Made by a program: the position numbers and the translations under genes. The notes under the pieces are model-generated. The model was not told the origin of the DNA. It did not search any database and saw only the letters and a program-made list of their open reading frames with translations. This document shows, in pieces, positions 10,721 to 37,500 of a stretch of DNA of 48,445 nt. The DNA is from a virus. The DNA lies in IMG/VR virus record IMGVR_UViG_3300030419_006812, positions 1 through 48,445 of that record; one strand, written 5' to 3'. The first letter of the stretch is position 1, and every line of letters begins with the position of its first letter.

Positions 10721-10735
10721 TGATTATATATACAC
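10721..10735 (-). promoter_or_regulatory. Late-type promoter box before tape measure gene
   Basis: Minus strand reads GTGTATATATAATCA in the 25-base gap between the preceding stop and the tape measure start. Same box as at several other late gene starts. No -35 element is seen. Confidence 0.55.
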
Positions 10736-10739
10736 TAAA

Positions 10740-11735
10740 TCATGACAAATTGACAAAATCTTCCATTGTAAGTTTTCCTCCTTTCTTGGCGGCGAGGTCA
10801 TGCAAGTTAACTCCTAGCCCATCATCGATCCCCATATCGCGCATTTCTTGCTGACTTGCGCCCATCACACTGTACCCCCCTTTCTCTTGACTTTTCTGTC
10901 TCATCTCGTCCGCTTTAGAAGCGCTACTAGCAAAGTCTAATAACAAATCAGGATCCCCCCTCACATTATCCGGAATATTCTGGGCGTTCTCCAAGATGGA
11001 ATTAAATATCTTCGCATAATTTAATAAATGTAATTGATAAAAAGTATGCTCGGTCAAAGGCTTGCCGAATAATTTATGTATATTTTTAGACCCTAATATA
11101 TTAGCATATAGAGTAAAAAAATCCGATAATGCTAAGTGTTTTATATTCTCGATGCTAATATCTATGGCCACCGCCGAATAAATATCAAATAGCGTTTTTA
11201 ACTCCTCAGTACTTAATTCCTTATATTGTTGATATGAAAATAAACGAGATTTCCCTTCTTTATCTTCATAATAAGAATAATAAATAATCAAATCATTACT
11301 CTTTTTTAACCCATAACTTTCGCATGTTTCCGGAAGTAATCCCCGTTTTTTAATTTCTATTTCTTCTATCTTTTCTTGAGCGTTGGTAATGTCCTTACTA
11401 ATCCCATCTATCTGACTAGGGACTGCCAACTTCTTACGGGTAGCAAGTAAATTATCTAAATAATCTTTATGACCTTGAAGTTCCAGCTCTTCCTCTTTAG
11501 TCCAAATTCCTTGCTCCTCTAGAAATTCATAACAGTCTTTTTCGGTATCAAGACCTTGATTTTTAGCTTTTTCAAAAGCCTCGTGATAAGCTTCTTCAAT
11601 ATGCCCCTGCTCCTCAAAAGTAAAATGCCGAACATAAACCTCTTCTTTCTCGTAGGTTACACTCGAGCTTCCTCGGGCTATTGTGTAAAATAACCGTCGA
11701 AAAAACTGCTCGCTCCTTTCGGGAGCCTTCTCCAT
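10740..11735 (-). CDS. Probable tail assembly chaperone, second member
   Basis: 331 residues, mostly helical and charged, with no domain I recognise. It lies directly before the tape measure gene and starts two bases after the stop of the 311-residue gene, in the -1 frame relative to it. In many phages this place is held by a pair of tail assembly chaperones (lambda G and G-T type), the second made by -1 frameshifting. The end of the first gene has T AAA AAG, a weak slippery heptamer, and an ATG is also available, so separate initiation is as likely. Function is inferred from position only. Confidence 0.6.
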   Translation of the reverse strand: MEKAPERSEQFFRRLFYTIARGSSSVTYEKEEVYVRHFTFEEQGHIEEAYHEAFEKAKNQGLDTEKDCYEFLEEQGIWTKEEELELQGHKDYLDNLLATRKKLAVPSQIDGISKDITNAQEKIEEIEIKKRGLLPETCESYGLKKSNDLIIYYSYYEDKEGKSRLFSYQQYKELSTEELKTLFDIYSAVAIDISIENIKHLALSDFFTLYANILGSKNIHKLFGKPLTEHTFYQLHLLNYAKIFNSILENAQNIPDNVRGDPDLLLDFASSASKADEMRQKSQEKGGYSVMGASQQEMRDMGIDDGLGVNLHDLAAKKGGKLTMEDFVNLS

Positions 11736-11737
11736 AA

Positions 11738-12673
11738 TTAAGAGTCCGCCGATGCCTTTTTAGCTTTGGGCTTGCGTCCGCGTTTAGCTTTAGGTTTGGG
11801 AGCAGGCTCTTCTTCCGGAACCTCTTCCTCTACCTCAGTTTCGGCGTCGGCACCGGGAGCTCCAATAGTGGGCGAGAAAGCATCCGCTTCGTCGTTGATC
11901 TCCTCCAAGACCGCCTCAAAGTCGTCTTGGCTTTGAATGCCGCTCATATACCAAATGGTAATAATAGAACTTAAACGATCAATAGCCAAAGAAAAGATTT
12001 CATCTCCCCCTTCATCCTGCTCTTGGTAGCTGTCATACTTTTCTTCATAATCCAACCCCTCAAACAAAGGAGCTTCTTCAGCAGCACCTTTTTTAAAATA
12101 AGTCAAATGAAGTAAAAACCACGTAATAGCTCTATTGCGCGCTTTTACATCAGCAGTATGATCAAACACTGAAGCTTGAGCCGCTTCGTAATCTGCAATT
12201 TCTTTTCTTACTACAGCTAAATCCGATACCGCTTTATCTAAACGCTCCGCTTCATTTACAGTAAGGTTATCTCTATCTTTGGCGCTATAACGAATCACCT
12301 GTTGTTGTTTTTCATACAGCTTTAAATAAAGACTCGCAAAACGTTGTTTTTCGTCTTGATTTAGAGTTCCTCCTAAATCCACGTGCTGTTTAGCCAACAT
12401 GGAGCGCGTCAACAAACCCATCTTAATAAATTTATTCAGCCAAATACTATAGAACATGTCCCCATCTTCTATCTGAGTACGAGTGGGTTTCTTGACAATA
12501 ATTTTGACAGGAACTTCTTCAGCGACAGTTTTTTCAACAGTCTCTTCAATAGTTTCCATTTTGCCGGTATCTTTATTTTTGCGCCGTACCTTTTTAATAT
12601 CCTCTTTTACAACCTCTTCTTCAATTCGAACCTCAAAGCTGTAAAGTTCTCTGTTTGCTGATTTTTTTGCCAT
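11738..12673 (-). CDS. Probable tail assembly chaperone, first member
   Basis: 311 residues. An N-terminal region rich in Glu/Lys is followed by a helical core (about 85-190: FYSIWLNKFIKMGLLTRSML, then an ITWFLLHLTYFKK helix). The acidic C-terminus ends in a basic Pro/Lys tail with an AT-hook-like KRGRKPK motif. Position before the tape measure gene suggests a tail assembly chaperone that coats the tape measure during tube polymerisation; the AT-hook-like tail is unusual for that role. The start has AAGG four bases upstream. A capsid- or DNA-associated role cannot be excluded. Confidence 0.6.
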   Translation of the reverse strand: MAKKSANRELYSFEVRIEEEVVKEDIKKVRRKNKDTGKMETIEETVEKTVAEEVPVKIIVKKPTRTQIEDGDMFYSIWLNKFIKMGLLTRSMLAKQHVDLGGTLNQDEKQRFASLYLKLYEKQQQVIRYSAKDRDNLTVNEAERLDKAVSDLAVVRKEIADYEAAQASVFDHTADVKARNRAITWFLLHLTYFKKGAAEEAPLFEGLDYEEKYDSYQEQDEGGDEIFSLAIDRLSSIITIWYMSGIQSQDDFEAVLEEINDEADAFSPTIGAPGADAETEVEEEVPEEEPAPKPKAKRGRKPKAKKASADS

Positions 12674-12690
12674 TACCTTAATCCTGTTAA

Positions 12691-12972
12691 TTATATTATA
12701 TGTTCTACTGTGGCGGCGATTTCACGCGCACAATGATTTCCTGAATCTAAAATTCTTTTTCTTAAATGCTCTAACTTTTCTTCGGTTAAATAATCTGCCT
12801 GATCCAAGAGATCATGATAAGTGTCAGGGAATTTATCTTTCAACTTTTGAAAATGCGTTTGGTGTTCATATTCCAAGTCCTCCAACATAATTAAAAAAGA
12901 CTTGTATAAATTAATAATATTTCTATTAACCTGAAACCTCACTATATTCTTAACATCACCTTTAACCTTCAT
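12691..12972 (-). CDS. Small helical phage protein of unknown function
   Basis: 93 residues, predicted largely helical (FLIMLEDLEYEHQTHFQKLK), no recognisable domain. It sits between the tube-like genes and the chaperone pair, preceded on the minus strand by an AT-rich TATAATAATATA stretch that could be a promoter. A tail assembly role is possible from context only. Confidence 0.7.
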   Translation of the reverse strand: MKVKGDVKNIVRFQVNRNIINLYKSFLIMLEDLEYEHQTHFQKLKDKFPDTYHDLLDQADYLTEEKLEHLRKRILDSGNHCAREIAATVEHII

Positions 12973-13011
12973 AGTATATATTATTATACCGCTTTACATA
13001 AACTTTTTCAA

Positions 13012-13785
13012 TTATAAAAATTTGGTTAAATTAACAGAGGAGGATCCCACCTCATTACTGTTTATATCCCAGCCTCTTTCAACACTATAACCTTGCAACG
13101 AAATCGAACCCATGGAAGTGCCATCACAATTAGCAAAAGCGATGGTAATATTGTCTTCTATAGTAGGACAGGGAGAAACCCCGTTCAAAAGAGTGTCTGT
13201 TAACGCATACGCCTCAATAGACGCTGAAGCCTCCCCCTCTCCCCATATGATAGCTGGAGCTGTTGTTTTACCTAGATAATAATACGCATTATAACTTTGG
13301 GATAAGGAATAATCAAACGAACCCACTTCCGTTGAAGCTCCCCCTCCCAAGGAATCATATCCCGTTATGGTAGTTTTTTGAGCTATTGCTGGTTCAATTG
13401 TGCCGACCGGAGCCGTAGCCGCACTACTAGAGCTGCTCCCAAAATATATCCATGAAGTACTTACTTGAATTATGGAGTTAGATGCGGTATTAATGCTTAA
13501 ATCCGTTAAATAAGCGGAGCTGCTTACGTTTCCTCCTATATTAATTTGTTGAGCAGAATTCGAGCGGGTAAGCGCGGTAAAGGTAGTTAGATCGGCACTA
13601 TTGGTAAGGTAAAAAGTAGCTGACGCAGAAGCCTCTACGGCTTTTGTATTAAAACTTCCAGCGCTAGAGCGCACCCCATAACTTTTTAAAGTCTCGAGCC
13701 CAATACTTTCCCCGAAACTGGCCGACGTAGCGTAAACAGCTCTTCCTGCTAAGTTAACCGGTAAATCTTTAAAGTCTGTAGCCAT
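13012..13785 (-). CDS. Tail-tube-like structural protein, paralog 3
   Basis: 257 residues, Ser/Thr/Ala-rich and beta-strand-like. The C-terminal half aligns by eye with the two genes upstream: a Cys-containing strand pair (PCPTIEDNITIAFANCDG), then SISLQGYSVERG, then a closing SSSVNLT strand. The start overlaps the stop of the upstream paralog by one base (TAATG), so the two are translationally coupled. Probably a tail tube or tube-associated subunit that arose by tandem duplication. It lacks most of the N-terminal part of the 377-residue paralog. Confidence 0.75.
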   Translation of the reverse strand: MATDFKDLPVNLAGRAVYATSASFGESIGLETLKSYGVRSSAGSFNTKAVEASASATFYLTNSADLTTFTALTRSNSAQQINIGGNVSSSAYLTDLSINTASNSIIQVSTSWIYFGSSSSSAATAPVGTIEPAIAQKTTITGYDSLGGGASTEVGSFDYSLSQSYNAYYYLGKTTAPAIIWGEGEASASIEAYALTDTLLNGVSPCPTIEDNITIAFANCDGTSMGSISLQGYSVERGWDINSNEVGSSSVNLTKFL

Positions 13786-14642
13786 TAGGAAAAGACAGCA
13801 GCCACGTCTGCCACCGAATTTAAATAAGATTTGTAAGTTACATTAACGGACATATTTTCCCGAATACCAGCGCTCAAGGAAAAAGCGACTGCTTCGCCGC
13901 TCGGCAAACTAAACCCTTGAATTTTAGAGGCGTTACAGTCATTGAGATCAATTGTCAGGGTAGATGAAGTGCCTCCACACAGTACCGTCCTTATGTCGGG
14001 GACTTCATATTCATTCACGGTCATCTCAAAAGATAAAGTAGCTTCCACGGGTAAATTCAAGAGTACTTCCGACGGGGTAAAATTATTCCCTATCGTTGGT
14101 ACCGTGCGTCGCTCCAAAGCTAAATTGAGATCGTAAGATTGAACGGCATTGGAAGAATAACCCGGTACATTAAGGGAGATATTAGCTGGCAAAGGGATGG
14201 AAGGCGCTACCGTATTGGTAGCCAAAGTCCCCCGCGTCCCCGCTCCCATTTCACCGTAAATGCTTAAGCCCAGATCGGCGGTAGGAACATCTCCTATAGA
14301 ACACGAAGAACTATAAGTATTAAGATACCCGGAAGTAAAGATAAAATCTTGCCCATGACTTTGATTAGGGCCGTAGGTTAAAGCTCCTGCTAACGTAGTC
14401 CCAAACCAACTCACTGCCGGATCGGTGCTCGTCACAATCAAGCGATTTACCGAGAGGCTATGGGTTAATTCTCCCTCTAATGCTCTTCCCGCATACCCTT
14501 CCCCTAAAACATTTAAGACGGTTTCGCTCTTATCCCACCCCGGATCTACCCCTTGGACTCCACGCAATTCTTCCAAAGTGCCCCCTTGTGGCCCCAAATA
14601 AAACCTTTGATCCGGAGCAAAATTCCTACCGTAATTAGCCAT
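13785..14642 (-). CDS. Tail-tube-like structural protein, paralog 2
   Basis: 285 residues. It shares with the 377-residue protein a middle strand pattern (SCSIGDVPTADLGLSIYGE against VEAAVGDIPSASCSVEGA), the segment LALERRTVPTIGNNF against VPLSRTPLNRLGNAF, and the Cys-containing strand TLTIDLNDCN. Late-type promoter box and terminator lie between it and the upstream paralog, so it starts its own unit. Likely tail tube subunit or tube-tip component; which paralog forms the main tube is not shown by sequence. Confidence 0.78.
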   Translation of the reverse strand: MANYGRNFAPDQRFYLGPQGGTLEELRGVQGVDPGWDKSETVLNVLGEGYAGRALEGELTHSLSVNRLIVTSTDPAVSWFGTTLAGALTYGPNQSHGQDFIFTSGYLNTYSSSCSIGDVPTADLGLSIYGEMGAGTRGTLATNTVAPSIPLPANISLNVPGYSSNAVQSYDLNLALERRTVPTIGNNFTPSEVLLNLPVEATLSFEMTVNEYEVPDIRTVLCGGTSSTLTIDLNDCNASKIQGFSLPSGEAVAFSLSAGIRENMSVNVTYKSYLNSVADVAAVFS

Positions 14643-14649
14643 ACCTAAG

Positions 14650-14660
14650 TATTTTTACAC
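14650..14660 (-). promoter_or_regulatory. Late-type promoter box GTGTAAAAATA
   Basis: Lies 8 bases before the ATG of the 285-residue tube-like gene, directly after the terminator of the upstream gene. The resulting mRNA would have almost no leader. Confidence 0.5.
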
Positions 14661-14694
14661 AAAAAACCCTCCGGCGGGAAGCCGGAGGGTTTTT
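14661..14694 (-). terminator. Rho-independent terminator after 377-residue tube-like gene
   Basis: Perfect 9-bp stem (CCCTCCGGC / GCCGGAGGG, loop GGGAA) flanked by A6 on the left and T5 on the right, so it can work in both directions. It ends the unit of the tube-like gene, as expected for a highly expressed virion protein. Confidence 0.92.
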
Positions 14695-14715
14695 GAAGCA
14701 ATTAAACTTTATCTA

Positions 14716-15849
14716 TTAAGCTTTTCCTGAGAGGAAAACTCCCTGATCTCGAGCTTGTCCCACCGGAACACTAAACGTGAGGTCAACGGTTTTGTTATCA
14801 CCAATAGTCGACGACATGTTTTGACTATCCAAGCTAGCCCCTTTAAGGGTGATAAGGAAAGCTCTCGCGTCGGTATCAGTGCCGCAACGAGTATTCATTG
14901 CGATAGTAATATCCCGAGACCCTTCGCTACAAATCAAATCACTCAGCATACCGGTCTGCGTATCGGTCAATTGAGCCGAAACGGACAGGGTAGCCGTGAT
15001 AGGCGTATCAATAGTGCGAGCGTAACTGAAGGCGTTGCCCAAACGATTCAACGGCGTGCGAGAAAGAGGAACTTCCAAGCTTACGCTTTGAACGTTGGAA
15101 ACAGTACCGTTACTAGCACCGGGCAGAATAGCTCCACCCATATCAATCCGTGAACTGCCGAAGTCCAGAGTCACATCACCGGGACGCAGAGCCATAGCTT
15201 GCAACGTACCAGTGGTAACGCAACCAGTAAGGTTTACTCCGGACCCTCCAACAGTACCATTTTGTTGGATAGTATGAGCCGGAATGTTCGCAACACTGTT
15301 ATGAAATAAAATATTAGCGCCCTCTACAGAACAACTAGCAGAAGGAATATCGCCTACAGCAGCTTCTACGCTATATGAAGTAAGACCCCCATTGCCGATG
15401 GCAATGACGTTCTTGTCGCCGGCGCCTGAAGCCCAACACTCGCTACCGGGACCTTGAGCAGCATCTTCACCTTCGGGAGTAGTAGCAATATACCAGCTTT
15501 GGATGTCTTTCTCGGAATTCTGCTTTAGAATCCCCGACAAGCAAGACTCGGGAGTAGTAAGGCCGTGACCTTGAACACTAAGACCCAGTCCGCTAGCTTC
15601 GTTATAGCCATCAACTACATAGTAGGTAAAATCCAACCCAACGGTTGGTGCTTCGATGATTTCTCGACTTAATGCAGCCAAACGGTCAAACTCTAGAATA
15701 TCGGTCCGCGTAACATCCACACTGTGACTAATGTCTTGAACTCGGTGGAGCTGAATAGCGGGCATTCCGTTCTGAAGAACTGTATTACCGCCGCCGCTAG
15801 GCCCCGAAAAGAGAGCCTCACTTTGATAGATTATTCGTTTTCTTGCCAT
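14716..15849 (-). CDS. Probable major tail tube protein, paralog 1
   Basis: 377 residues, beta-rich with many Gly/Ser/Thr. It is the longest of three tandem paralogs and the only one with both its own promoter-like box and an immediate strong terminator, the layout also seen at the major capsid gene. That suggests high expression, so I take it as the main tube protein. Shared motifs: VPLSRTPLNRLGNAF near 255, ICSEGSRDITIAMNTRCG near 305-322, and a closing strand VDLTFSVPVG. Tube identity is inferred from position between the neck genes and the tape measure gene. Confidence 0.75.
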   Translation of the reverse strand: MARKRIIYQSEALFSGPSGGGNTVLQNGMPAIQLHRVQDISHSVDVTRTDILEFDRLAALSREIIEAPTVGLDFTYYVVDGYNEASGLGLSVQGHGLTTPESCLSGILKQNSEKDIQSWYIATTPEGEDAAQGPGSECWASGAGDKNVIAIGNGGLTSYSVEAAVGDIPSASCSVEGANILFHNSVANIPAHTIQQNGTVGGSGVNLTGCVTTGTLQAMALRPGDVTLDFGSSRIDMGGAILPGASNGTVSNVQSVSLEVPLSRTPLNRLGNAFSYARTIDTPITATLSVSAQLTDTQTGMLSDLICSEGSRDITIAMNTRCGTDTDARAFLITLKGASLDSQNMSSTIGDNKTVDLTFSVPVGQARDQGVFLSGKA

Positions 15850-15860
15850 GATGTAAAAAA

Positions 15861-15876
15861 GTTATTTTTATACTAC
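15861..15876 (-). promoter_or_regulatory. Promoter-like box GTAGTATAAAAATAAC
   Basis: Variant of the late box (GTATAAAAATA) 12 bases upstream of the 377-residue tube gene. No -35 seen. Confidence 0.45.
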
Positions 15877-15918
15877 AATGTAAATTACAGCAAAACATAC
15901 CGAAAGAGAACATTTTTT

Positions 15919-17899: not shown

Positions 17900-17904
17900 G
17901 ACGC

Positions 17905-18408: not shown

Positions 18409-18411
18409 TTT

Positions 18412-18948
18412 TTACATGTCTTCGTTGAGTATTTTCAAGATTTTTTTAGCTTCAGGACTGCCGGGATCCACTAAAGGCTTTTGGAAGCCTATGTGGTAAG
18501 CAGCTCCAGCTCCGGGATGACTTTTGAACTGACGTTTGATTTTATTTTTTAAGGAGAGCTTGTTCCCACTCGGAAGAATTCCTATCCTTACAGCCAAAGC
18601 TTGAAGGTCACTTAGTCCCATACCATCCATGTTTTCCTCCAAAACGGCTAGACTAGTCGTGCCGAAAGGATTAGTCTGCTTGACCCCGAGCAAATCTTCG
18701 AGATCTTTCATTTTTTCGATATCGCTCTTTTTCCCATCGGCCACCTCCATTTGATTCTGAACTTCAGAAAAAGGGCGGCGAGCTTCTTTCTGCAGAGCAG
18801 CTGCAGCTTCTTCCTTTTTTCTTTGTTCTTCTTCTAAATTTATAACCCGCGTTACCGGTTTTGGTTTGGGGGTAGCCTTTTTCCGAGTAGAAGCTCTAGC
18901 CTTTTTTGGGGAGCGAGAGCGTTTATTAGTAGTTTTTTTCTTAGTCAT
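18412..18948 (-). CDS. Basic SAP-like structural or DNA-binding protein
   Basis: 178 residues. The first 35 are very basic (Lys/Arg/Ser/Pro), followed by a charged helix. Residues about 110-140 (LSDLQALAVRIGILPSGNKLSLKNKIKRQF) match the helix-turn-helix pattern of SAP or Rho-N-like nucleic acid-binding motifs. The C-terminus has KPLVDPGSPEAKKILKIL. It starts the neck operon, with a late box about 30 bases upstream and AAGG before the start. It may bind packaged DNA or nucleic acid at the portal vertex; function not known. Confidence 0.65.
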   Translation of the reverse strand: MTKKKTTNKRSRSPKKARASTRKKATPKPKPVTRVINLEEEQRKKEEAAAALQKEARRPFSEVQNQMEVADGKKSDIEKMKDLEDLLGVKQTNPFGTTSLAVLEENMDGMGLSDLQALAVRIGILPSGNKLSLKNKIKRQFKSHPGAGAAYHIGFQKPLVDPGSPEAKKILKILNEDM

Positions 18949-18978
18949 GATAGATTATCCTTTTACCTTATTATATCC

Positions 18979-18989
18979 CTTTTATACAC
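18979..18989 (-). promoter_or_regulatory. Late-type promoter box GTGTATAAAAG
   Basis: Lies between the capsid terminator and the neck operon, 31 bases before the start codon of the SAP-like gene. Confidence 0.55.
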
Positions 18990-19012
18990 AAAAATCAACC
19001 CTTTGAGAAAAG

Positions 19013-19043: not shown

Positions 19044-19074
19044 CTGTTAAACGCTATAAAACGTTAGGATCTTC

Positions 19075-20975: not shown

Positions 20976-22598
20976 TTAGTATTTAACAGTAACATTTTCT
21001 TTTGAAAAAGCTTGAGAAAATTGCTCGCGCAACGAAGCTTCTTCAGCCGACGCTTCTTCGTTATTATTGAGAAGCGCAGCCGTCGATTCTTCTTCAGCAC
21101 TGTCGAGAATTTCTTCAACCGTTTCTTCGGAAGCTTGCGTTTCGGAAGCCACACTTTCGTTTAGTTCGGCCAATTTTTCCTCAACAGCTTCGTTGAGTTT
21201 TTCGGCAAACTGCTTTTCCTGCTCTTCAATAAAGGCTTTTGTCTTGTGAGACCACATGACAGCCAACTTTTCTTGGTAAGAGGAAAAAGCTTCTTCTTCA
21301 GCGGGTAATTCGCTAACTTCAGAAGCCACGATTTTAAGATCTTCTTCGCCCAACTCGAAACCTTCAGTAACTGAAGCCATGCGTTGGTTAAAGAGATCCT
21401 TAGCTTCACGGAGGCGCTTCGCTTCGGCCAGTTCTTCAAGTTGACTTTGCGTATCAGCAAGCGTTTGCTTCACTTCTTCCAGTTCAGTCGCAAGAGATTC
21501 TTGAGCCTGAGCGGCTTCAGCCAAAAGAGCGTCTTTGGCTTCCCTGTCGGCCTGCCATTGTTCGTCCTTTTGCTTGATAGCTTCCATCATTACCTTGGAG
21601 ACACTAGCAGCTGCTTCTTCGACATGCTGGCTATCACCAACTTTCTCAGAAAGCATACCTTCGATTTTTTCTAGTAGATCTTTAGTATCCATAGTTAATG
21701 CGTTTTCCTTGTTTACAGTTTCTGTTTCAAAAAGGGAACTATTTTTTTCTGCAGCAGCATTTTTAATATAGTTTTCACAATTACAAACTTCTATTTTTTC
21801 TTGTGCGGCCTGAGGGGCTTCGCTGATTTCGTCAGGGTTGATTTTAACTCTTTTTTCGTTTTCTACAATCACCCCTTCTACATCAGCAGCGGGATTCGCG
21901 GTAAACCCAATGCCGAGAGGATAAATCTCTCCCACCACCAAACGGTTTACAATGGTCCCATCATCCATCTCTCCATCCCCGTCATAAGCTTTTAAATATT
22001 TACTTAATTCTTTTATTTGACTTTTTTCGGTAATAACTTCCGCTTCGCTAAGGTCTTTACTCCCTACTGCAATATAATAGTCATTAAAGCCAATTTCCCA
22101 ACTTGCTGATACCACATTTTCAAATTCCTCTCCGGCCCCCGTTTGTTCGAGCATCCGGGCGAACGCTGGATTTACTACTTTATATACTAATGCTCCCAAA
22201 GCAATATTAAAAGGGCCCTCGGAACCTCGGACCATTTCATCCGTAATTAATTCATTCTCACCAAAAGAACTAAAAGAGGCGGAAATTATATGACCTACAA
22301 TATTTTGTTTATTATGTTCTATATTTGTAGGTTTATTAATAAAATAATCTTTAATGGCAATAGCGGTATCAGTATCAATACCATCTCCATTTTTATTAAA
22401 TCGATTAACAACCGCCCCATTAAAAGCAACTCCCAATAAATCAATATTTTTGGATAAATCGACTTCGGGAGGCAACAAAGGCCTCAAATTATCCAGCGAT
22501 GCTTCGCTAATTCCCCATCGCTGACACGAACCTTCAGCACAGGAAGCTTTTACAGAACTCTGGAATTTACTAGTATATTTAAAAGGTGTATCGCTCAT
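20976..22598 (-). CDS. Prohead protease fused to scaffolding core
   Basis: 540 residues in two parts. Residues 50-250 look like a prohead maturation protease: NKPTNIEHNKQNIVGHI with His95, and VVSASWEIGF with candidate catalytic Ser164/Ser166, matching the His/Ser pattern of herpes-type (T4 gp21-like) protease folds. From about 290 to the end is a long Glu/Ala-rich coiled coil with the look of a scaffold, ending in SFSKENVTVKY. Fusion of protease and scaffold is known in other phages. It would drive prohead assembly and then digest itself. A late box lies immediately before the start. Confidence 0.82.
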   Translation of the reverse strand: MSDTPFKYTSKFQSSVKASCAEGSCQRWGISEASLDNLRPLLPPEVDLSKNIDLLGVAFNGAVVNRFNKNGDGIDTDTAIAIKDYFINKPTNIEHNKQNIVGHIISASFSSFGENELITDEMVRGSEGPFNIALGALVYKVVNPAFARMLEQTGAGEEFENVVSASWEIGFNDYYIAVGSKDLSEAEVITEKSQIKELSKYLKAYDGDGEMDDGTIVNRLVVGEIYPLGIGFTANPAADVEGVIVENEKRVKINPDEISEAPQAAQEKIEVCNCENYIKNAAAEKNSSLFETETVNKENALTMDTKDLLEKIEGMLSEKVGDSQHVEEAAASVSKVMMEAIKQKDEQWQADREAKDALLAEAAQAQESLATELEEVKQTLADTQSQLEELAEAKRLREAKDLFNQRMASVTEGFELGEEDLKIVASEVSELPAEEEAFSSYQEKLAVMWSHKTKAFIEEQEKQFAEKLNEAVEEKLAELNESVASETQASEETVEEILDSAEEESTAALLNNNEEASAEEASLREQFSQAFSKENVTVKY

Positions 22599-22600
22599 AC

Positions 22601-22612
22601 GCTTATATACAC
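22601..22612 (-). promoter_or_regulatory. Late-type promoter box GTGTATATAAGC
   Basis: Ends three bases before the ATG of the protease-scaffold gene, implying an mRNA with little or no leader. No Shine-Dalgarno is visible there. Confidence 0.55.
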
Positions 22613-26000: not shown

Positions 26001-26015
26001 CCCTTTATAATACAC
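26001..26015 (-). promoter_or_regulatory. Late-type promoter box and ribosome site before portal gene
   Basis: GTGTATTATAAAGGG on the minus strand: the GTGTA box runs directly into an AAAGGGAG Shine-Dalgarno four bases before... the ATG region, leaving a very short leader. Confidence 0.5.
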
Positions 26016-26060
26016 TAAAGAAAATTAAAAGTCTAACAAAAGTTAAAAGTCAACTTTAAC

Positions 26061-27938
26061 TTATGCTATGAACATTGGCGCAAAGGTGGCTTGAAGATCT
26101 TCCGCTTGTAGATTGCTAAAGTCGTAATATATCTTTACCATCCAATTACCCAAAACCAAAGCTGAATAAGAGTCTTTACGTACTTTGTCGGGCCCGGTTT
26201 GCCTTTTTAGATTAGGGGGTAGGTTAAAAGTTTGAGTACCTTGGGGAGAAGTTGTGATTTGAATAAGCGCGCACTCTGTTTTGGTTAATTCAAGAGTATC
26301 GTATTGATGCTCGATAAAATCAATCATTTTAGCTCCCGCATCTTTTTCTCCCAATAAGTCTCCGGTCCGCAAAAAGTTTAACTTTGAAATAGGGATCTTT
26401 TTAGATCGTTGGATTTTATAATTATCATTCACTGCTCTCGACGCAAAAAATATTTTACGGTGGTCAAAATTAGCTTGAAGTAATTCATTAGCAGTTCTAA
26501 TCCATTGAGAGGTAGGCTTTCTCAAAATACATATTCTTTGAGAGTTTAAATCATATTGAGATTTAGCTTCTTTCAAAGCCTTTTGATAATCTTCAGGATT
26601 ATCGAAATTGGTGTCAATAGTTTTGATATTAATGTTATTTTTCTTAAAAAGCGCGCTTTCGTTGCAAGCGCTCAAAAACTGCACTCCACCATTGTAATCT
26701 CCTACCATAGCGACGATATTAAAATGCTTTAAAAGGTAATGAAAGTAAAAGATATGATCTTTCATTCGGGCGCCGGGAACTGCGTAGCTATGTACCACGG
26801 TTCCTATACCTGTCTCATCATGGAGTTTAAAAACTTGGATAGCAAAATTATCACTACTCTCACTTTCGGCCCAACTGGGGTCAAAAGCTAACAAGTATTT
26901 ATCGTCGGGGTCTCCAGCCACCTCCACACAAGGGGAATCTCCATCGGCTACCGTACAGGCCGCCATTTTGGAAATCTTAAAGTAGCCCGAACTATCATCA
27001 GTAAAAACAGCCCCAAACTCTCGATCAAACTGGCTTTGGCTCATGCTGGCCTTTGCTTGGTTTATGAGGTTTTGGTCATAAAGCTGCTTTGGAGCACAAT
27101 CGTAACTAAAATGCATGATGGTCCGATGAGCCGTACTATCCTTTTCTACCTCATGGCCCCCTATTAACCCCTCGAATTTCTCATACAATTTGTACATGTA
27201 CTCAAATTTATAAGAAGCGGAGGACAACATAATGAGTTTATTGTTGGGCCACTTATAGCGGTCCTCCTCTCGCATCTCGCCTCTAGCGATCAACTCGGTT
27301 TCGAGGTTATAAATATCCTCGCGTTCCGTAGGGTTTTCTACTACCGACAAGAAAGGCACTATAACTTCATTATATATTTTCTCCGGCATTAGCAAAAACT
27401 CATCAATAATAATTCGATGAAAACGAAAACCACGCAGCTTTTCACCATCGCCCAAGGGCAACGCATGAATTTTACTAGTGCCAAACTCCATCGTCCACTG
27501 ATCGTTGTTTTTGGCTTTACGGGTCATGCATTGAGCCAATAAGGCTGCTTCGGGCTTTGCCATGATATCTTCTATTTTACGAAATATCATTTTAGCTTGG
27601 CGGAATGATTTAGAAAGAATTCCTATTTCTACTCCTTGATGCAAAATTGCATCCATAAAGGCAAAGATGCCAGTCGTAAACGATTTAGACATTCCCCGAG
27701 ACCATACCCCCATAAAATAGTCCGTTTCGAACATAGCTTTAATTGCCATATGTTGAAAAGGAAATAATTTAATACCACTTAAAGTATCCACTCCAAAAGT
27801 AATATTATTACGAAGAAATTTATATAATAATATTTTCGCTTCCCGTTCCTCTAGAAATCCTTTTTTATTTAAGATTTCTTGATTAATCGCGGATGAATAA
27901 TTATCACGGATTTCTTGGGTACCATCAATCCATGTCAT
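26061..27938 (-). CDS. Terminase large subunit
   Basis: 625 residues. ATPase domain: adenine-binding FPFQHM near 59-64, Walker A WSRGMSKS (79-86), Walker B RIIIDE (175-180), coupling motif LSSAS near 238-242. RNase H-like nuclease: Asp353 in LLAFDPSWAE and Asp414 in MVGDYNGG. It pumps DNA through the portal and cuts it. The start overlaps the end of the zinc-finger/ERCC4 gene by 14 bases. No convincing small subunit was found in the window. Confidence 0.95.
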   Translation of the reverse strand: MTWIDGTQEIRDNYSSAINQEILNKKGFLEEREAKILLYKFLRNNITFGVDTLSGIKLFPFQHMAIKAMFETDYFMGVWSRGMSKSFTTGIFAFMDAILHQGVEIGILSKSFRQAKMIFRKIEDIMAKPEAALLAQCMTRKAKNNDQWTMEFGTSKIHALPLGDGEKLRGFRFHRIIIDEFLLMPEKIYNEVIVPFLSVVENPTEREDIYNLETELIARGEMREEDRYKWPNNKLIMLSSASYKFEYMYKLYEKFEGLIGGHEVEKDSTAHRTIMHFSYDCAPKQLYDQNLINQAKASMSQSQFDREFGAVFTDDSSGYFKISKMAACTVADGDSPCVEVAGDPDDKYLLAFDPSWAESESSDNFAIQVFKLHDETGIGTVVHSYAVPGARMKDHIFYFHYLLKHFNIVAMVGDYNGGVQFLSACNESALFKKNNINIKTIDTNFDNPEDYQKALKEAKSQYDLNSQRICILRKPTSQWIRTANELLQANFDHRKIFFASRAVNDNYKIQRSKKIPISKLNFLRTGDLLGEKDAGAKMIDFIEHQYDTLELTKTECALIQITTSPQGTQTFNLPPNLKRQTGPDKVRKDSYSALVLGNWMVKIYYDFSNLQAEDLQATFAPMFIA

Positions 27939-29684: not shown

Positions 29685-29736
29685 CTCAAAATTATTATAT
29701 AAAATTCTGAGGGTTTTTAAAGTTAAGGAATCCAGT

Positions 29737-29904: not shown

Positions 29905-29907
29905 AAT

Positions 29908-31497: not shown

Positions 31498-31500
31498 TTC

Positions 31501-33573
31501 TTAGTCCTTTAGTTTTTCCTCAAGGGCGGAAATTCTTTTCTCTTGCTCCTTGAAGCCCTCGATGAGGAGGGGGATTATTTTTTCATACTTGACCGCTTTG
31601 TAGCCGTCATCACGGGTCGTTACGGCCTCAGGAAGGACAGCCTCGATCTCTTGAGCTATAACTCCGACATCATGCCCCTCTAAGTGGCTATAGGCTTTTT
31701 TATTCCAATCAAACTCCACACCTGCAATTTGAGAAATCTTGTTCAGAGAATCGGGGATAGGGGTAATATTGTCCTTCAAGCGCTCGTCGGAGCTGGAGAA
31801 GGAAATAATGTCATTGGTCGCGACAATGCTTCCTACGGTTCCCGAAGGCTGGGTAAGACCTACGGCTAGCGCCCCTTCAAATATTCCACTACCTTTTCCG
31901 CTCAAACAAATACCATCCCCATCGGCGTTAGAAGGTAGCGTGATGAACGGATTCCCCACGTCATTCATCACTGCCACCTTACCAAAACCATTGGCGTCTT
32001 GTCCCATGATAGCCGAATACTGTCCCGCGCCATCCCACACGATGATATCCGCATCTGTTCCGGAGCTATAGATATTTTTAAAGACAACATCGTCCGCCAC
32101 ATTTAAATCCTGATCCATTGAGTAGCCATTGTCCAAGTTGGAGGTTGTTACCCACGGTGGAGATGACAAATTCACACCGTTAACGGTCAAGAAGCTGACT
32201 GCATCAGTCGTACGAAGGTTTTGGTCAATAGTATAGCCATTGTCCAAGTTGGAAGAGGTTGCGCCGCCACCCGCCCCACTGAGTTGCATCCAATTGCCGT
32301 CGGCGCCCGTAACGTAAGCCCGCTCCAAATACGCAGCCCCACTAACTGAAAGTAAATTCGTGGGAGTCGTAGTACCGATTCCGATGTTGCCACCGCTTGT
32401 AATTACCATCTTCTCAGTATGGGAGACGCCGTTATCGGTACTGAAGTAAAGGTCTCCTCTGCAAGACCCATCAACGCCTTTAAAATTAACCGTAGCCCCC
32501 GCATTTTCATTTCCATGATAAAAAGCTAGAGCCGAATCCGTGCTGCTTGCTGTGGCGCCTCCACTGCCTCGTAAATGTATGCGCGTTTGATAAGCGCTAG
32601 CTGAGGAACCGGAAATATCCAGCCCAAAATAGGTAGGTTCGCCATTTAAGGGATCACTCGTTCCAATCCCCACCTTACCGTTACTGTCAATTCTAAATTT
32701 TTCGGAGTATGCTGACGCAGCCGTACGATTCCCTACGACAAAGGGGCCACTATAGGCTGGAGCTCCACCCCCGTCATTTTGCGAGCCGGCGTTCCCGACA
32801 TACCATGTAGAAACCGTAGCTCGATCATACCACCCCATTAAGGCAGCGCCAGCCGTAACGTTTTGATTGTCGCCAAAGAAGAGAATCCCGCTTGGGTAAG
32901 TAGAGGTGGCTGAACTAGGAACATAATTGGTAAGCTCATCACTCCTAGCCTGCAACCTAAAGGAGGGAGTGTCCGTACCAATACCTACCTTTTCTCCCGA
33001 CGCCGTAAAATAAGTAGACCCGTCAGCTTTATTAATTTGAAGATATCCGGAACCTCCCCCGTCTTCTCCCAAATGAGCTAAATAAGATCCCCCATCCGAG
33101 GCTTGAAGGACTATTTGGTTTCCTACTCCCTGACCGCTTACATGCAAAGGAGTAAGAGGGGTTCCTTTTCCCACCATTACTTTGTCATTAGCCAAAAGGT
33201 TTTTTACCTTTAGGTCTTGATAAGCCGAAATAGTAAGGTTCCCTTTTAGGCTAGAATCATCGGTGGTAGAAATTAGAGCAAAGTGATCAGAGCTTTCATC
33301 CCATATGCTCGCCACATTGATGTTGGATCCGCGATCTCCTAGCCACCCTAGGTCATGGGTATTGGGGACGCCGGGATCCACTCCACTATTAAGCCCAATC
33401 AAAGGGTCTCCAATAAAGAGGTCAACGGGATGCTCTACAAACCCGGTCCCTGTAACATACAAGGTTCCAATCCTTACGCTGCCGGGAAAAGTAACGTCCG
33501 TGCAATGAGATAAATCGCTACAATTAAAAGAGGTACTACCCTCTAGACGGCATGCGTGAGAATCATGAGACAT
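31501..33573 (-). CDS. Tail fibre with C-terminal S74 intramolecular chaperone
   Basis: 690 residues. Repeated segments of the type GIGTxxPxxxLxVSG (near 200, 300 and 400) form the shaft. Residues about 593-690 are a peptidase S74 domain: SSSDERLKDNI with the self-cleaving Ser and the Ser-Lys pair, then VGVIAQEIEAVLPEAV and a final coiled coil. The domain trimerises the fibre and then cuts itself off. A host recognition role is likely. Confidence 0.9.
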   Translation of the reverse strand: MSHDSHACRLEGSTSFNCSDLSHCTDVTFPGSVRIGTLYVTGTGFVEHPVDLFIGDPLIGLNSGVDPGVPNTHDLGWLGDRGSNINVASIWDESSDHFALISTTDDSSLKGNLTISAYQDLKVKNLLANDKVMVGKGTPLTPLHVSGQGVGNQIVLQASDGGSYLAHLGEDGGGSGYLQINKADGSTYFTASGEKVGIGTDTPSFRLQARSDELTNYVPSSATSTYPSGILFFGDNQNVTAGAALMGWYDRATVSTWYVGNAGSQNDGGGAPAYSGPFVVGNRTAASAYSEKFRIDSNGKVGIGTSDPLNGEPTYFGLDISGSSASAYQTRIHLRGSGGATASSTDSALAFYHGNENAGATVNFKGVDGSCRGDLYFSTDNGVSHTEKMVITSGGNIGIGTTTPTNLLSVSGAAYLERAYVTGADGNWMQLSGAGGGATSSNLDNGYTIDQNLRTTDAVSFLTVNGVNLSSPPWVTTSNLDNGYSMDQDLNVADDVVFKNIYSSGTDADIIVWDGAGQYSAIMGQDANGFGKVAVMNDVGNPFITLPSNADGDGICLSGKGSGIFEGALAVGLTQPSGTVGSIVATNDIISFSSSDERLKDNITPIPDSLNKISQIAGVEFDWNKKAYSHLEGHDVGVIAQEIEAVLPEAVTTRDDGYKAVKYEKIIPLLIEGFKEQEKRISALEEKLKD

Positions 33574-33578
33574 AGCAC

Positions 33579-33926
33579 TTAAGCCAAGTGGCGCTCGTTA
33601 ATTAAAAACTCACCAGCAGAGCCCGTCAACACCGCTCGGGCATAAGCGAAACCCCAGTTGTCTGAGTAAGCGACTCCTGTCGCGGTATCTATGGTAGGAC
33701 TTGAGTAAATGCACGTATAGTTAATATTATCATTAGAAATCTCAATATTGAATTTTCCATCCCATGGTCCATCCCCGCAGGGTACCACTTGATAAGTATG
33801 GGTATGATAATCTTGGGTAAAAACCGCCTCACCCGTTAACCACGCTTCCCCGCTAGTTTGAATCGTGTGAGTCCCCACGTCCGCGCGGTCTTGAGCGTTT
33901 CTTAAACGTCTATAAGTAGATCTCAT
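33579..33926 (-). CDS. Small beta-rich structural protein
   Basis: 115 residues. Strand-rich with DGKFNIEISNDNINYTCIYSS and a WGFAYARAVLTGSAGEF close, a pattern like small virion ornament or fibre-base proteins. First gene of the fibre operon, late box upstream. Function not recognised. Confidence 0.7.
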   Translation of the reverse strand: MRSTYRRLRNAQDRADVGTHTIQTSGEAWLTGEAVFTQDYHTHTYQVVPCGDGPWDGKFNIEISNDNINYTCIYSSPTIDTATGVAYSDNWGFAYARAVLTGSAGEFLINERHLA

Positions 33927-33950
33927 AATAAAAATATTGGCGGGTTAGTA

Positions 33951-33973
33951 TGCACTTATTATTATATATACAC
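33951..33973 (-). promoter_or_regulatory. Late-type promoter box before the fibre operon
   Basis: Minus strand: GTGTATATATAATAATAAG then TGCATAC. It stands alone in a 55-base gap and lies about 25 bases upstream of the ATG, so this unit has a leader. Confidence 0.6.
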
Positions 33974-33981
33974 GTAAATTC

Positions 33982-35046
33982 TTAAATCAAGTCCTCTTTT
34001 CTCAAACCTAAAACCCTAGCTTTCCAATCCGGCATGGATTCTAAGTTTTCAGCCTCTTCGCTTACTAGTTGTTTTTGCATCTCTGCAATCTTAACCATTA
34101 CGCTCCTTTCCTCTTCTTCTTGGAAGATTTGCACTAAATTTAAAATAGACGCATTTTGTTGATGTTTGTTTTGTACTCTTTTAGCTCTGTCCCCATTTAA
34201 ACGCGTCACCAAACTCTCCATACGCTTTTCGCATTGATTGTATTCCTCACTCTTGGTTTTAAGAAGTTCCGCAAGGCGGACAGTCATCTCTCGCTGATCT
34301 TCGCAGGAATCAAACATGTGGTTGAGCTTATCCATCGCTTTTTGGATATTTTTTAAATTAATATAATCAATACAAACATTAATATATAAATTTACTTCAT
34401 CCGATGTTAAATCCGATTTATCCCATGTTGCTCTAATAAATTCTGCTTCAAAAAGTTTTCGGTCATTAATATCGGTATAATTTTCCACCACTTGTTTTAA
34501 GCGCGGCGACTGAAGGAATATCATGAGCATCTCTAAACCTTTTCGTACTCCAACGCTTAATTTTTCCTTCTTGAATTTTTGGCCCGCAAATTCATTCACC
34601 TTCGCAATAATGTCTTCCATCTCCGTCGGTACCTCATATCCTTTGTTCAACCCCGTATCTTTAGGATGCACCATCTCCGGTTGATTGTCGCTAATATATT
34701 TAGCTACCTCCAGCGACTCCTTGCTTAAAGGCGTGATGTTACGTTTATCAGGAAATAAGACCACGGCAATCTCAAAGGCCTTCATTCCCGCTGCGTTTTC
34801 TAAAATAAATTCTTTTTGCTGTTCTGTTAGTTTTATTTTTTTAGCTGCGGGGCGTTTGGTGGTTTGGTAAGCATATTGTTTCTCACTCATATACTTTCGT
34901 ACCGCTCGCCCCTCTTTAGTACGTCCATCTAAAGCGTCGTTCATAAACGCTTGACGAGTCAATTCCTGAATATCAGGAGTTTCTTGGTAATTAGCATCAA
35001 TAAACGCCTTTTGCTCATCTGTTAATTTAAAATTAGCCATTGCCAA
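33982..35046 (-). CDS. Protein with duplicated N-terminal helical module
   Basis: 354 residues. Residues 5-60 (FKLTDEQKAFIDANYQETP...VRKYMSEKQ) and 70-125 (IKLTEQQKEFILENAAGMK...VAKYISDNQ) are two copies of one helical module. The rest is helical with a coiled coil near 240-345. The start overlaps the sigma-factor gene by 14 bases, so the two are coupled; a role with the sigma factor, or in DNA binding or packaging, is possible. Family not recognised. Confidence 0.7.
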   Translation of the reverse strand: MAMANFKLTDEQKAFIDANYQETPDIQELTRQAFMNDALDGRTKEGRAVRKYMSEKQYAYQTTKRPAAKKIKLTEQQKEFILENAAGMKAFEIAVVLFPDKRNITPLSKESLEVAKYISDNQPEMVHPKDTGLNKGYEVPTEMEDIIAKVNEFAGQKFKKEKLSVGVRKGLEMLMIFLQSPRLKQVVENYTDINDRKLFEAEFIRATWDKSDLTSDEVNLYINVCIDYINLKNIQKAMDKLNHMFDSCEDQREMTVRLAELLKTKSEEYNQCEKRMESLVTRLNGDRAKRVQNKHQQNASILNLVQIFQEEEERSVMVKIAEMQKQLVSEEAENLESMPDWKARVLGLRKEDLI

Positions 35047-35749
35047 AAATATCTTTGTTTTTTAAAATTGAAATTGCTTTTGTTTTAAATTGTTTCTTTA
35101 AATTTTTAATTTGCTTGTAACCTGCCTTTCTTCCTTTTTCTGTTGTTTTATATCCCATTTTTTTTGCTACCTCTGCATCCGAGGTATTTTCAATAAATAA
35201 TAATTGATAAAGACTAAATTGGCGCTCGTTCAACACCTTTTTCATTTCCGCATGTAATTTATCTTCCGCGTGTTCTATTTGATAAGGAGCTGTGTTATCC
35301 GCAATAGGCATGTCGGCGGGGCGACTATCTAAAGAAAAAGGCATCTTGATGTCATAAGCTGCTTTTTTAGTCTTTTCCCATTTTGAATACAAGGGGCAAG
35401 TCGAATCCTGAAGCCCCGTAGAAGTGAAGCCACACAAAGCATCCTTCCCATCTTCCATATGACTGCTTTGATTGAAGGGACAGCTCAAGCAGGGCCGTAC
35501 GAAATTACTATAATAATTCCGTAAAATGTTTTTTAACTGATTACTAATTAAGCGATTCAGCCATGGTTTCAACGGACGCTCTTGGTCCCATTGATCCCAT
35601 TTTTTAAAGATGTGCGCTCTAATAATTTGAGATACATCGTCAAAGTCTATCCATGCCAAGGAATTTAAAAACCACTTTCCTCGGCGTTTTTTTAATTCTT
35701 CGTCAATTATCAGAGCTTGATCTTCGTAAGTTAGTTTCTTTTTACTCAC
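35033..35749 (-). CDS. Divergent phage RNA polymerase sigma factor (late sigma-like)
   Basis: 238 residues. Region 2 is recognisable in FDDVSQIIRAHIFKKWDQWD and RPLKPWLNRLISNQLKNILR (36-78), close to T4 gp55-type and sigma-70 region 2. A Cys-rich insert follows (Cys87, Cys90, Cys106, Cys118), probably binding zinc. A helix-turn-helix like region 4 lies at 172-225 (LNERQFSLYQLLF; TSDAEVAKKMGY). It would direct host RNA polymerase to late promoters, for which the GTGTAtAtATAA boxes are the obvious candidates. Confidence 0.82.
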   Translation of the reverse strand: MSKKKLTYEDQALIIDEELKKRRGKWFLNSLAWIDFDDVSQIIRAHIFKKWDQWDQERPLKPWLNRLISNQLKNILRNYYSNFVRPCLSCPFNQSSHMEDGKDALCGFTSTGLQDSTCPLYSKWEKTKKAAYDIKMPFSLDSRPADMPIADNTAPYQIEHAEDKLHAEMKKVLNERQFSLYQLLFIENTSDAEVAKKMGYKTTEKGRKAGYKQIKNLKKQFKTKAISILKNKDIFGNG

Positions 35750-36116
35750 TTACGTCTTTAGGCTCCCGGGCGGATTGACATTCTTTTAAAATTTGCTTTT
35801 GGACATCATATCCTTTAGGTGGAGTTACTTTAGGGCGCCCACCCAGAGGATTATATTCTTTATTGGGATCCTGAGCAGCTTGACTCACTAAATCTCCAAA
35901 AGTTACTGTAGGACCGGATCGTTGGATCTCATATTCTAATTTGGAGATACGGGAAATAGTAGGGGGAGATTCCACTTCCTTCTCCGAGCTAACCACGGGC
36001 TGCTGTGTCGCCTGAGCTTCTTCAGACAACTTGCCACCACAAGAGCTGCAAAAATTTGGCTTTTTGAGGCTGTACTGGTATTGAGTACCGCACTCCATGC
36101 AAAATTCAGTGTTCAT
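35742..36116 (-). CDS. Zinc-ribbon protein
   Basis: 124 residues. N-terminal ribbon with Cys6, Cys9, Cys23 and Cys26 (CMEC...CSSC), then a Pro/Ser-rich linker and a short KYNPLGGRPKV-like segment near 85-100. The end overlaps the sigma-factor start by 8 bases, so it may act with it in transcription. Function unproven. Confidence 0.7.
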   Translation of the reverse strand: MNTEFCMECGTQYQYSLKKPNFCSSCGGKLSEEAQATQQPVVSSEKEVESPPTISRISKLEYEIQRSGPTVTFGDLVSQAAQDPNKEYNPLGGRPKVTPPKGYDVQKQILKECQSAREPKDVSE

Positions 36117-36131
36117 ACACTTATTTTACAC
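36117..36131 (-). promoter_or_regulatory. Late-type promoter box GTGTAAAATAAGTGT
   Basis: The box runs directly into the ATG of the zinc-ribbon gene; the AT-rich hexamer TAAAAT ends seven bases from the start codon, so the transcript would begin at or near ATG. Confidence 0.5.
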
Positions 36132-36156
36132 GTAATACAAAAAAAATTCAATTATT

Positions 36157-36738
36157 TTATAAAAGATAGCCCGTCATTATACGAGCTTGGCGACGCATAA
36201 ACTCCAAAGTCCCTTCTTTGAAGAGATGTGAAGACTTAACGTAATCTACTCCAAGTATACCAATCACTTTTCCATTTAAGGTTTTCAATGGAACATTAAA
36301 AATGCTCGCCACCCCTTTGTCCTTTAATAAAGCTTTAAAAGCCGTGTCTGGAATATCAGCAATCTTACTATAAGCAAAACTTCCGTCGTTTACCACCTCG
36401 CTAATATAATGATGAAAATTAGAAATACGATGATTTTGGGAATTTCCAAACTCTGCGCTAATTCCGCTCTTTACTACTTCATAAGTACAACTAAATTTCT
36501 GCTGCCCTCGTCCCGAGAAATAATGTTCGCCATTATGAAATTCCATAATATAAGCTCTGTCACCTCCGGATTCTCCCAAGAGATACTCAAGCGCCGTATA
36601 AACATTAGCGTTCTGAATAGTCTCATCAACAATAGCATCTCTTTTTTTGCGATGTATTATTTTTCGCGTCAACCAAACGCTGGTAATAGTTGCCGTTGCC
36701 GAAATAACAGCTGCCAGTATAGTATATAAGCCATCCAT
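36157..36738 (-). CDS. Membrane-anchored GAF-like sensor protein
   Basis: 193 residues. One membrane helix at 3-22 (LYTILAAVISATATITSVWL) followed by basic residues, so the rest is cytoplasmic. Residues 55-190 have a GAF-like pattern: RAYIMEFHNGEHYFSG, then VASIFNVPLKTLNGKVIGILGVDYV. GAF domains bind small ligands; no output domain is fused. GTGTAATTAAGTG precedes the start but overlaps the PhoH stop codon, so that box may be chance. Confidence 0.75.
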   Translation of the reverse strand: MDGLYTILAAVISATATITSVWLTRKIIHRKKRDAIVDETIQNANVYTALEYLLGESGGDRAYIMEFHNGEHYFSGRGQQKFSCTYEVVKSGISAEFGNSQNHRISNFHHYISEVVNDGSFAYSKIADIPDTAFKALLKDKGVASIFNVPLKTLNGKVIGILGVDYVKSSHLFKEGTLEFMRRQARIMTGYLL

Positions 36739-36746
36739 GCACTTAA

Positions 36747-37451
36747 TTACACTATTTCTTTTTCTAGTTTTCCTATTATAAACTTTTGCAAAGGGCTCCT
36801 CATGATATCTTCCTTAGTAAATGAGAAAGAATGAATGCCTTTCTTGCGGCTTTCTTCATCATTAAAGGTATTAAACATTTTTTTATACCCCGATTTCCCA
36901 TTAATGTCGCTTTGCATGAAATCACCACATATAAATAACTTACTGTTTTTTCCTAATCGAGTTATTAATGTAGTCAATTCTTTAAAACTAAAATTTTGCG
37001 CTTCATCCGCTACTACTATTTTATCTGTCCAATTTGCTCCCCTTAAATAATTAATCGGCATAGCTTGAATACGCCCCGCGTCAAACATCTCAGCTTTTGC
37101 CGTATTTGTTTTAGGAAGCATCTCAGTTAATTTGTCTTCCAATGGCATCAAGTAAGGATTAAACTTCTCATCTATATCTCCCGGTAAAGCTCCCAATCCT
37201 TTTTCCGCACTTTCAATTACAGTACGCACATATAATAAATCCAACGCCTCTTCCGAACTCAAATAGCGCAATGCTGCATATACAGCCATGTACGTTTTGG
37301 TAGATCCCGCTGGACCACTCACAAACATAATGTTCGTCTTGGGGTCTAGAGCTAGAGAGAGAAAAAGCTTCTGCTTTTCAGTTAGTCGAAGACTGTTTAC
37401 TCTGAAAGTCAGCTTTAATTGAGGGATCTCAATTTTACGGGTTTTTGGCAT
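36747..37451 (-). CDS. phoH: PhoH-like ATPase
   Basis: 234 residues. Walker A GPAGSTKT (46-53), Walker B IVVADEAQN (145-153), and TRLGKNSKLFICGD sensor region (164-177), the usual PhoH order. A common phage auxiliary ATPase/RNA-metabolism gene whose exact role in infection is unsettled. Start codon lies in a divergent intergenic region with the plus-strand pair. Confidence 0.9.
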   Translation of the reverse strand: MPKTRKIEIPQLKLTFRVNSLRLTEKQKLFLSLALDPKTNIMFVSGPAGSTKTYMAVYAALRYLSSEEALDLLYVRTVIESAEKGLGALPGDIDEKFNPYLMPLEDKLTEMLPKTNTAKAEMFDAGRIQAMPINYLRGANWTDKIVVADEAQNFSFKELTTLITRLGKNSKLFICGDFMQSDINGKSGYKKMFNTFNDEESRKKGIHSFSFTKEDIMRSPLQKFIIGKLEKEIV

Positions 37452-37467
37452 TCTTTCTATTCTACTT

Positions 37468-37500
37468 ATGTATATACACGAAATTTTAGTGTATATATTA
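37468..37500. promoter_or_regulatory. Divergent late-type promoter pair within an inverted repeat
   Basis: Minus strand GTGTATATACAT faces PhoH; plus strand GTGTATATATTA faces the plus-strand pair. Together they make a perfect 8-bp dyad ATATACAC-N9-GTGTATAT at 37472-37496. It may be two back-to-back late promoters, an operator, or both. Confidence 0.6.

Follow-up and report, generated by a model that had tools for sequence, protein, structure and literature searches.

How an uncultured phage tells its late genes from its early ones is the question raised by IMG/VR virus record IMGVR_UViG_3300030419_006812, which in its entirety (48,445 bases, classed linear) forms the window analysed here. 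Its late half (1-37.5 kb) is a single minus-strand block encoding tape measure, portal, terminase, S74 fibre, sigma factor, and PhoH, and small genes fill the right part. A first-pass annotation had proposed that the late gene starts share a box likely read by the encoded sigma factor. The shared box is real, its core being GTGTA followed by A/T, and sequence evidence supports its role as a promoter element of late genes that differs from the early promoters of host type. The window is a piece of a large tailed phage without a close cultured relative, its terminase reaching at most about 26% identity to any among 50,697 phage records. Scans with the terminase and sigma proteins gave 325 and more than 550 confirmed candidate relatives, respectively, and the group is one of common, uncultured, large phages with hundreds of contigs in IMG/VR. 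Relatives included contigs of 104-211 kb, analysed over their full length; none of the phage records used is known to be complete.

Within the window, the full 12-mer GTGTATATATAA was found exactly at two positions only, and with up to two mismatches gave 13 matches vs. 3.4 +/- 1.9 in shuffles. Of 29 gene starts (28 on the minus strand and the plus-strand one at 37503), 11 had GTGTA in the 50 nucleotides (nt) before them, vs. 1.5 expected from composition and 0.6 from random sense windows, and the reversed word ATGTG preceded none of the 29. Non-coding DNA of the late half, 877 bases in all, contained eight copies on the minus strand and one on the plus strand (37489), each directed toward the gene it precedes, as the claim of a constant coding orientation had it. 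The boxes and the genes they lead are as follows.

10724-10735, minus strand: late box GTGTATATATAA, at -21 from the tape measure ATG
1-10714, minus strand: tape measure gene, late, box-led, cut by the window end (phrog_4211, E 4.8e-44; PF10145, E 2.8e-26)
14656-14660, minus strand: GTGTA core, at -18 from gene 13785-14642, immediately behind a terminator hairpin and T-run
18985-18989, minus strand: GTGTA core, at -41 from gene 18412-18948
22608-22612, minus strand: GTGTA core, at -14 from gene 20976-22598
23866-23870, minus strand: GTGTA core, at -32 from gene 22627-23838, within the 3' end of the portal gene
26011-26015, minus strand: GTGTA core, at -17 from the portal gene
23851-25998, minus strand: portal protein gene, box-led (tblastn vs. 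Bacillus phage portal proteins, E 2e-6)
33962-33973, minus strand: late box GTGTATATATAA, at -47 from gene 33579-33926, which heads the fibre operon
31501-33573, minus strand: S74 fibre gene of the fibre operon
36127-36131, minus strand: GTGTA core, at -15 from the zinc-ribbon gene 35742-36116, which heads the sigma operon
36748-36752, minus strand: GTGTA core, at -14 from gene 36157-36738, overlapping the PhoH stop codon
37475-37479, minus strand: GTGTA core, at -28 from the PhoH gene 36747-37451
37489-37500, plus strand: late box GTGTATATATTA, facing away from the PhoH box as its divergent partner; core at -14 relative to the GTG start at 37503

The set of box-led genes named in the first-pass annotation was largely borne out; the confirmed boxes cover the tape measure, 13785-14642, 18412-18948, 20976-22598, 22627-23838, portal, 33579-33926, zinc-ribbon, 36157-36738, PhoH, and plus-strand genes; gene 14716-15849 has to be removed from it, carrying TAGTATAAAAATAA without the core. 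The plus-strand gene most likely starts at the GTG at 37503, directly after its box. Recoded stop codons, considered for the short open reading frames at 1-10.7 kb, were ruled out, the tape measure occupying the minus strand there as a single frame, in the standard code, of over 3,570 codons. ACTTTT repeats are conserved upstream of the portal box (26015-26065, minus strand, and in the portal upstreams of relatives), ending at about -12 relative to the box, and look like a gene-specific binding or bending site.

The enrichment extends well beyond the window. The main set comprised 369 non-coding sense upstreams, taken from the window and six relatives (seven phages); in a first motif search over all 100-nt upstreams, coding sequence had swamped the signal, and restriction to non-coding upstreams solved this problem. 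An unseeded ranking of all 5-mers by position returned TTGAC at -35 (23 vs. 0.3 expected) and GTGTA at -14 (20 vs. 0.4) as its top two entries. With small shifts allowed, GTGTA occurred 41 times at -18 to -14 vs. 1.2 in dinucleotide shuffles (maximum 5 in 300), and TTGAC 55 times at -39 to -34 vs. 1.7. Between -13 and -5, GTGTA met a hard wall (0 vs. 3.3 expected in the same 369 upstreams). Another 611 distinct upstreams from late regions yielded 98 copies vs. 3.1. Gene starts in these sets came from a simple in-house caller, of which the orthologue test is independent. In that test, the box stood above the portal gene in all 45 distinct sequences, beginning precisely at -14 relative to the ATG in 32 of them, and was likewise retained above gene 16 (22627-23838; 12/12), gene 15 (20976-22598; 47/60), PhoH (33/45), and gene 27 (36157-36738; 30/65). 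Operon-internal genes 18, 19, 24, and 25 had it in 2 of 332 orthologue upstreams. No clear third promoter class emerged among upstreams with neither motif, and a literature search for GTGTATAAT returned no relevant phage paper. The box, its position, its gene set, and its conservation can all be read from sequence, and from them we infer that it is a promoter.

The early half had been credited with -35/-10 promoters instead, and sigma-70-type promoters are indeed present there, three of them on the minus strand in the arrangement listed here.

46044-46103, minus strand: early sigma-70 promoter TTGACA ... TATTGT, its TTGACA starting 35 nt before the ATG (leaderless geometry)
44823 and 39796, minus strand: early promoters with the same geometry, ATG 35 nt after the start of TTGAC

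Early promoters lie in A/T-rich DNA and combine CTTGACA with TGnTAtaaT (last T at 92%) across a 17-nt spacer; the late class has GTGTA then A/T, with no strong -35 column. Among upstreams with at least 50 non-coding bases, TTGAC and GTGTA never occurred together (0 vs. 7.0 expected, P 2.6e-4). TTGAC-led genes included rIIA, rIIB, a DnaB-type helicase, ribonucleotide reductase, and an endonuclease; box-led genes included tape measures, fibres, and portal. Along the genome, the two classes were clearly segregated in relatives G003, G004, and G007; in the window, G001, and G002, the segregation did not reach significance. For most boxes the description "without a -35" is apt, yet it fails at two sites in the window: the zinc-ribbon box overlaps TTGAAT-17-TAAAAT, and the box of gene 18412-18948 lies inside the spacer of TTGATT-17-TATAAT. 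A complete lack of a -35 was also rejected for relatives, where a weak phased signal was found. Across 47 boxes from three relatives, a TTGACA-like match (at least four of six) at exactly 17-base pair (bp) spacing occurred 10 times vs. 2.4 +/- 1.5 expected, a test redone on non-orthologous boxes within single genomes, as orthologous portal upstreams inflate the signal. This may be a weak -35-like component, or some boxes may overlap sigma-70 promoters, as at the sigma operon, where T[TA]GA[AT] with TAnnnT 14-20 nt downstream was present in 71 of 74 relatives.

What the first-pass annotation overlooked is the main feature of the box, its fixed distance of -14/-15 to the start codon, which would imply leaderless late mRNAs. 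Both motifs are placed as if the start codon were +1, the -35 hexamer at -35 and the T of GTGTA at -11, with the core starting at -14. In phiEco32, RNA starts 6-8 nt downstream of the comparable motif tAATGTATAtA (PMC4281155). Applied here, this rule would set the RNA start at the start codon or within one or two bases of it, and given this geometry both classes should produce leaderless mRNAs. Shine-Dalgarno sites follow the same division. They preceded 1 of 39 late genes with a near box vs. 6 of 28 with a far box (Fisher P 0.018), and 2 of 55 early genes with a near promoter vs. 8 of 26 with a far one (Fisher P 0.0013). With the T of GTGTA at -11 and Shine-Dalgarno sites rare where the box is near, this layout agrees with that of TA-led genes, in which a -10-type signal lies about 10-12 bp ahead of the start codon. 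Four of 67 boxes lay immediately behind the T-run of an intrinsic terminator in a strict scan, supported by folds. Many late mRNAs are thus predicted to be leaderless, with their RNA start sites deduced from motif positions.

Is there a plausible reader? The window encodes a divergent sigma factor, termed sigma A, and some relatives carry an unrelated second one, sigma B.

35033-35749, minus strand: sigma factor A, with ECF-like domains 2 and 4 and a four-Cys insert (C87, C90, C106, C118); candidate box reader
G002:133960-134583: sigma factor B, example from a relative

That 35033-35749 encodes a genuine sigma factor was confirmed. Sigma70_r2 was found in 44 of 44 sigma A homologues (best E 1.9e-6) and Sigma70_r4_2 in 13 of 44; the window protein itself scored 24.2 bits for Sigma70_r2 in a six-frame search against a curated cut-off of 24, and 21.8 bits, just below it, in hmmscan. 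Its AlphaFold model (pLDDT 73.9, pTM 0.37) superposed with residues 3-89 on ECF region 2 at 2.8-3.1 A and with residues 157-235 on sigma region 4 at 2.1-2.9 A, and nearly all of its 50 best PDB fold matches were sigma factors or sigma domains. The four cysteines between domains 2 and 4 are invariant in homologues. Sequence and model together identify sigma A as a true, ECF-like member of the sigma-70 superfamily. In nearly all relatives it appears to be co-transcribed with the zinc-ribbon protein (35742-36116, minus strand) and a conserved protein of unknown function (33982-35046, minus strand), both of them possible cofactors of late transcription. Sigma B had no match among sequenced phages. 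Further ECF-type sigma factors occur in individual relatives (G001:23256-23441 and G004:60254-60454, both minus strand), so that some phages of the group encode three sigma factors.

The mechanism we propose would begin with early genes, read first by host sigma-70 from CTTGACA-17-TGnTAtaaT at the leaderless distance. The sigma operon would be transcribed from its sigma-70-like promoter, in some phages overlapping GTGTA, allowing the sigma factor to be made before the switch and to become self-sustaining afterwards. Host core RNA polymerase carrying a phage sigma, most likely sigma A, would then bind GTGTA at about -14 to -10 and melt the A/T run behind it, RNA synthesis beginning at the start codon or just ahead of it, some 14 bases past the first G. 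Genes with a box further up would receive a short leader, sometimes with a Shine-Dalgarno site.

As a whole, the best explanation is that GTGTA with its A/T run is a late promoter read by a phage sigma, most likely sigma A, on the host core polymerase, and we consider this probable. The choice of sigma A is the weakest step in that chain and is suggested by its presence in every record examined, its place in the late block, and an ECF-like domain 2 of the type that reads a TGTATA box in phiEco32. It is rather unlikely that the late promoter is instead read by sigma B, encoded in the other genome half, with sigma A serving other promoters or another step. Sigma B is found in all four relatives of at least 184 kb (G001, G002, G009, and G010) and in G011 (122 kb), and would be made early enough: it is never box-led (0/57), mostly operon-internal, and directly behind an early TTGAC-type promoter in 7 of 57 cases. 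In the genome half that carries sigma B, the box is equally strong (41 vs. 2 expected). Set against this are the features of sigma A just named and a region 2 of sigma B that appears nearer to the primary sigma group. The relatives examined held no natural variant uncoupling the box from either sigma, and a divergent group of phages, with a sigma A only about 50% identical, keeps GTGTA.

Two further readings dispense with a phage sigma at the box. Host sigma-70 might read it as an extended -10 (GTG-TAtaaT), possibly together with a remodelled sigma or a phage activator, leaving the phage sigmas to work elsewhere. The weak TTGACA-like signal at exactly 17 bp, the two window boxes overlapping good sigma-70-like promoters, and the TATcAT retained by portal boxes would all fit, but the last T of the -10 stands at 52% in boxes vs. 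92% in early promoters, the early extension is TGn rather than GTG and comes with a strong -35, and the two motifs mark different gene classes without co-occurring; we judge this reading improbable. That GTGTA is an RNA or translation-initiation signal and no promoter at all is very improbable. Its tight distance to the start codon would suit such a role, but boxes further upstream exist and Shine-Dalgarno sites then reappear, some boxes sit directly behind intrinsic terminators, and early genes have a canonical sigma-70 promoter at the matching distance in place of the box. A phage RNA polymerase as box reader was rejected, as eight records searched gave no match to an RNA polymerase beta subunit, and these phages seem to have no polymerase of their own.

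Several observations nevertheless weigh against late promoters read by sigma A. Confidence in the sigma A model is only moderate by both of its scores, and HHalign of sigma A against single sequences of gp55 and gp36 showed no similarity (probabilities 0.3 and 0.1, respectively) in one-sequence tests that are weak for remote kinship. Sigma B, early-promoter-led in several relatives, could be the reader, and the weak 17-bp signal with the residual TAnnnT character of the box leaves room for host sigma-70 at some boxes. Lastly, the one metagenome-assembled genome with a phage contig of this group (PBIO01, G008) uses Shine-Dalgarno sites, with neither signal seen there. This assembly was rejected as proof of Halobacteriovorax as host, its main contig being the one that uses Shine-Dalgarno sites and shows neither signal. 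Its contig C4 carries the terminase block of the phage group and its contig C1 a sigma B homologue; both are G+C-richer than the bacterial contigs and so perhaps parts of one phage, and binning is no proof of host.

Other features of the relatives lie outside the promoter question. In G006 (IMGVR_UViG_3300021958_000045; L186-L189), an open frame of about 10,560 codons at 14087-45775 on the minus strand is box-led at -18. The N-terminal part of the frame is a tape measure (phrog_4211, E 7e-53); a match to tRNA nucleotidyltransferase/poly(A) polymerase covers residues ~1572-1884 (phrog_2244, E 7e-64; PF01743, E 1.6e-19). A frame of similar size lies at 37378-68691 in G007. A tape measure with a CCA-adding-type enzyme domain would be unusual. 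Phage transfer-messenger RNA genes, well over the Rfam cut-off, were found on the minus strand at L171:15016-15391 (G002) and L167:18398-18798 (G004).

A broader picture is possible, and we offer it tentatively: a widespread, uncultured phage group with a sigma cascade running from host sigma-70 to one or both undescribed phage sigmas, in which promoter-led genes of both classes are predominantly leaderless, terminator, promoter, and start codon are fused within about 40-50 bases, and GTGTA is the promoter of a new sigma class starting RNA exactly at the start codon. Read as early/late punctuation, the two motifs make early and late genes of this group assignable by sequence alone, and a probable promoter is now linked with an orphan sigma factor that is conserved. 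Should 5' ends bear this out, these would be phages with leaderless late structural genes, and how abundant virion protein arises without Shine-Dalgarno sites, and what host ribosomes prefer, would become questions.

Comparison with known systems places the predicted switch among phage-encoded sigma factors. Large phages with separate early and late promoter motifs include the giant phage AR9, which has its own multisubunit RNA polymerases and leaders of 26-491 nt (PMC5312081), unlike the present group, in which no beta subunit was found in eight records. In TA-led leaderless bacterial genes, a -10-type signal precedes the start codon by about 10-12 bp, and a Shine-Dalgarno site is lacking (PMC3160421). 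They use the host TAnnnT -10, whereas here two temporal classes occur in one phage group, one with a dedicated box apparently not of the sigma-70 type. The first-pass annotation had likened the box to T4 late promoters, which read TATAAATA at -13 to -6 and depend on gp55/gp33/gp45 (PMC1524935). For function this is reasonable, both systems having a lone A/T-rich -10-type box without a strong -35 and a divergent phage sigma on host core polymerase (here predicted). The GTGTA plus A/T core, however, does not conform to TATAAATA, sigma A has a domain 4, and the mRNAs here are predicted to be leaderless. A T4-type clamp was looked for and none was found, with no PF02916 (gp45-type) or PF02767 (beta-type) match in eight incomplete or possibly incomplete records.

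The closest known mode of action is that of phiEco32, T4 gp55 being a looser analogue. In phiEco32, and also in phages 7-11 and SU10, the ECF sigma gp36 reads tAATGTAtA middle/late promoters (PMC4331800, PMC4281155). Shared with it are a phage ECF-like sigma on host core polymerase (again predicted here), one short box built on a TGTATA core, early promoters of the host sigma-70 type, a sigma operon under both host-type and phage-type promoters, and late structural genes; the box sequence and the dual-promoter operon make gp36 a closer match than gp55. Unlike in phiEco32, a G precedes TGTA and the flanking bases differ, sigma A has a four-Cys insert, and relatives carry a second sigma. In phiEco32, 35-60 nt separate box and start codon, and the leader carries a Shine-Dalgarno site; here the distance is 14-15 nt, and the transcripts would be leaderless. 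The phage-sigma late switch itself is already known in a few phages, and what is new relative to known phage late promoters is the core sequence, the sigma families, and the predicted leaderless layout.

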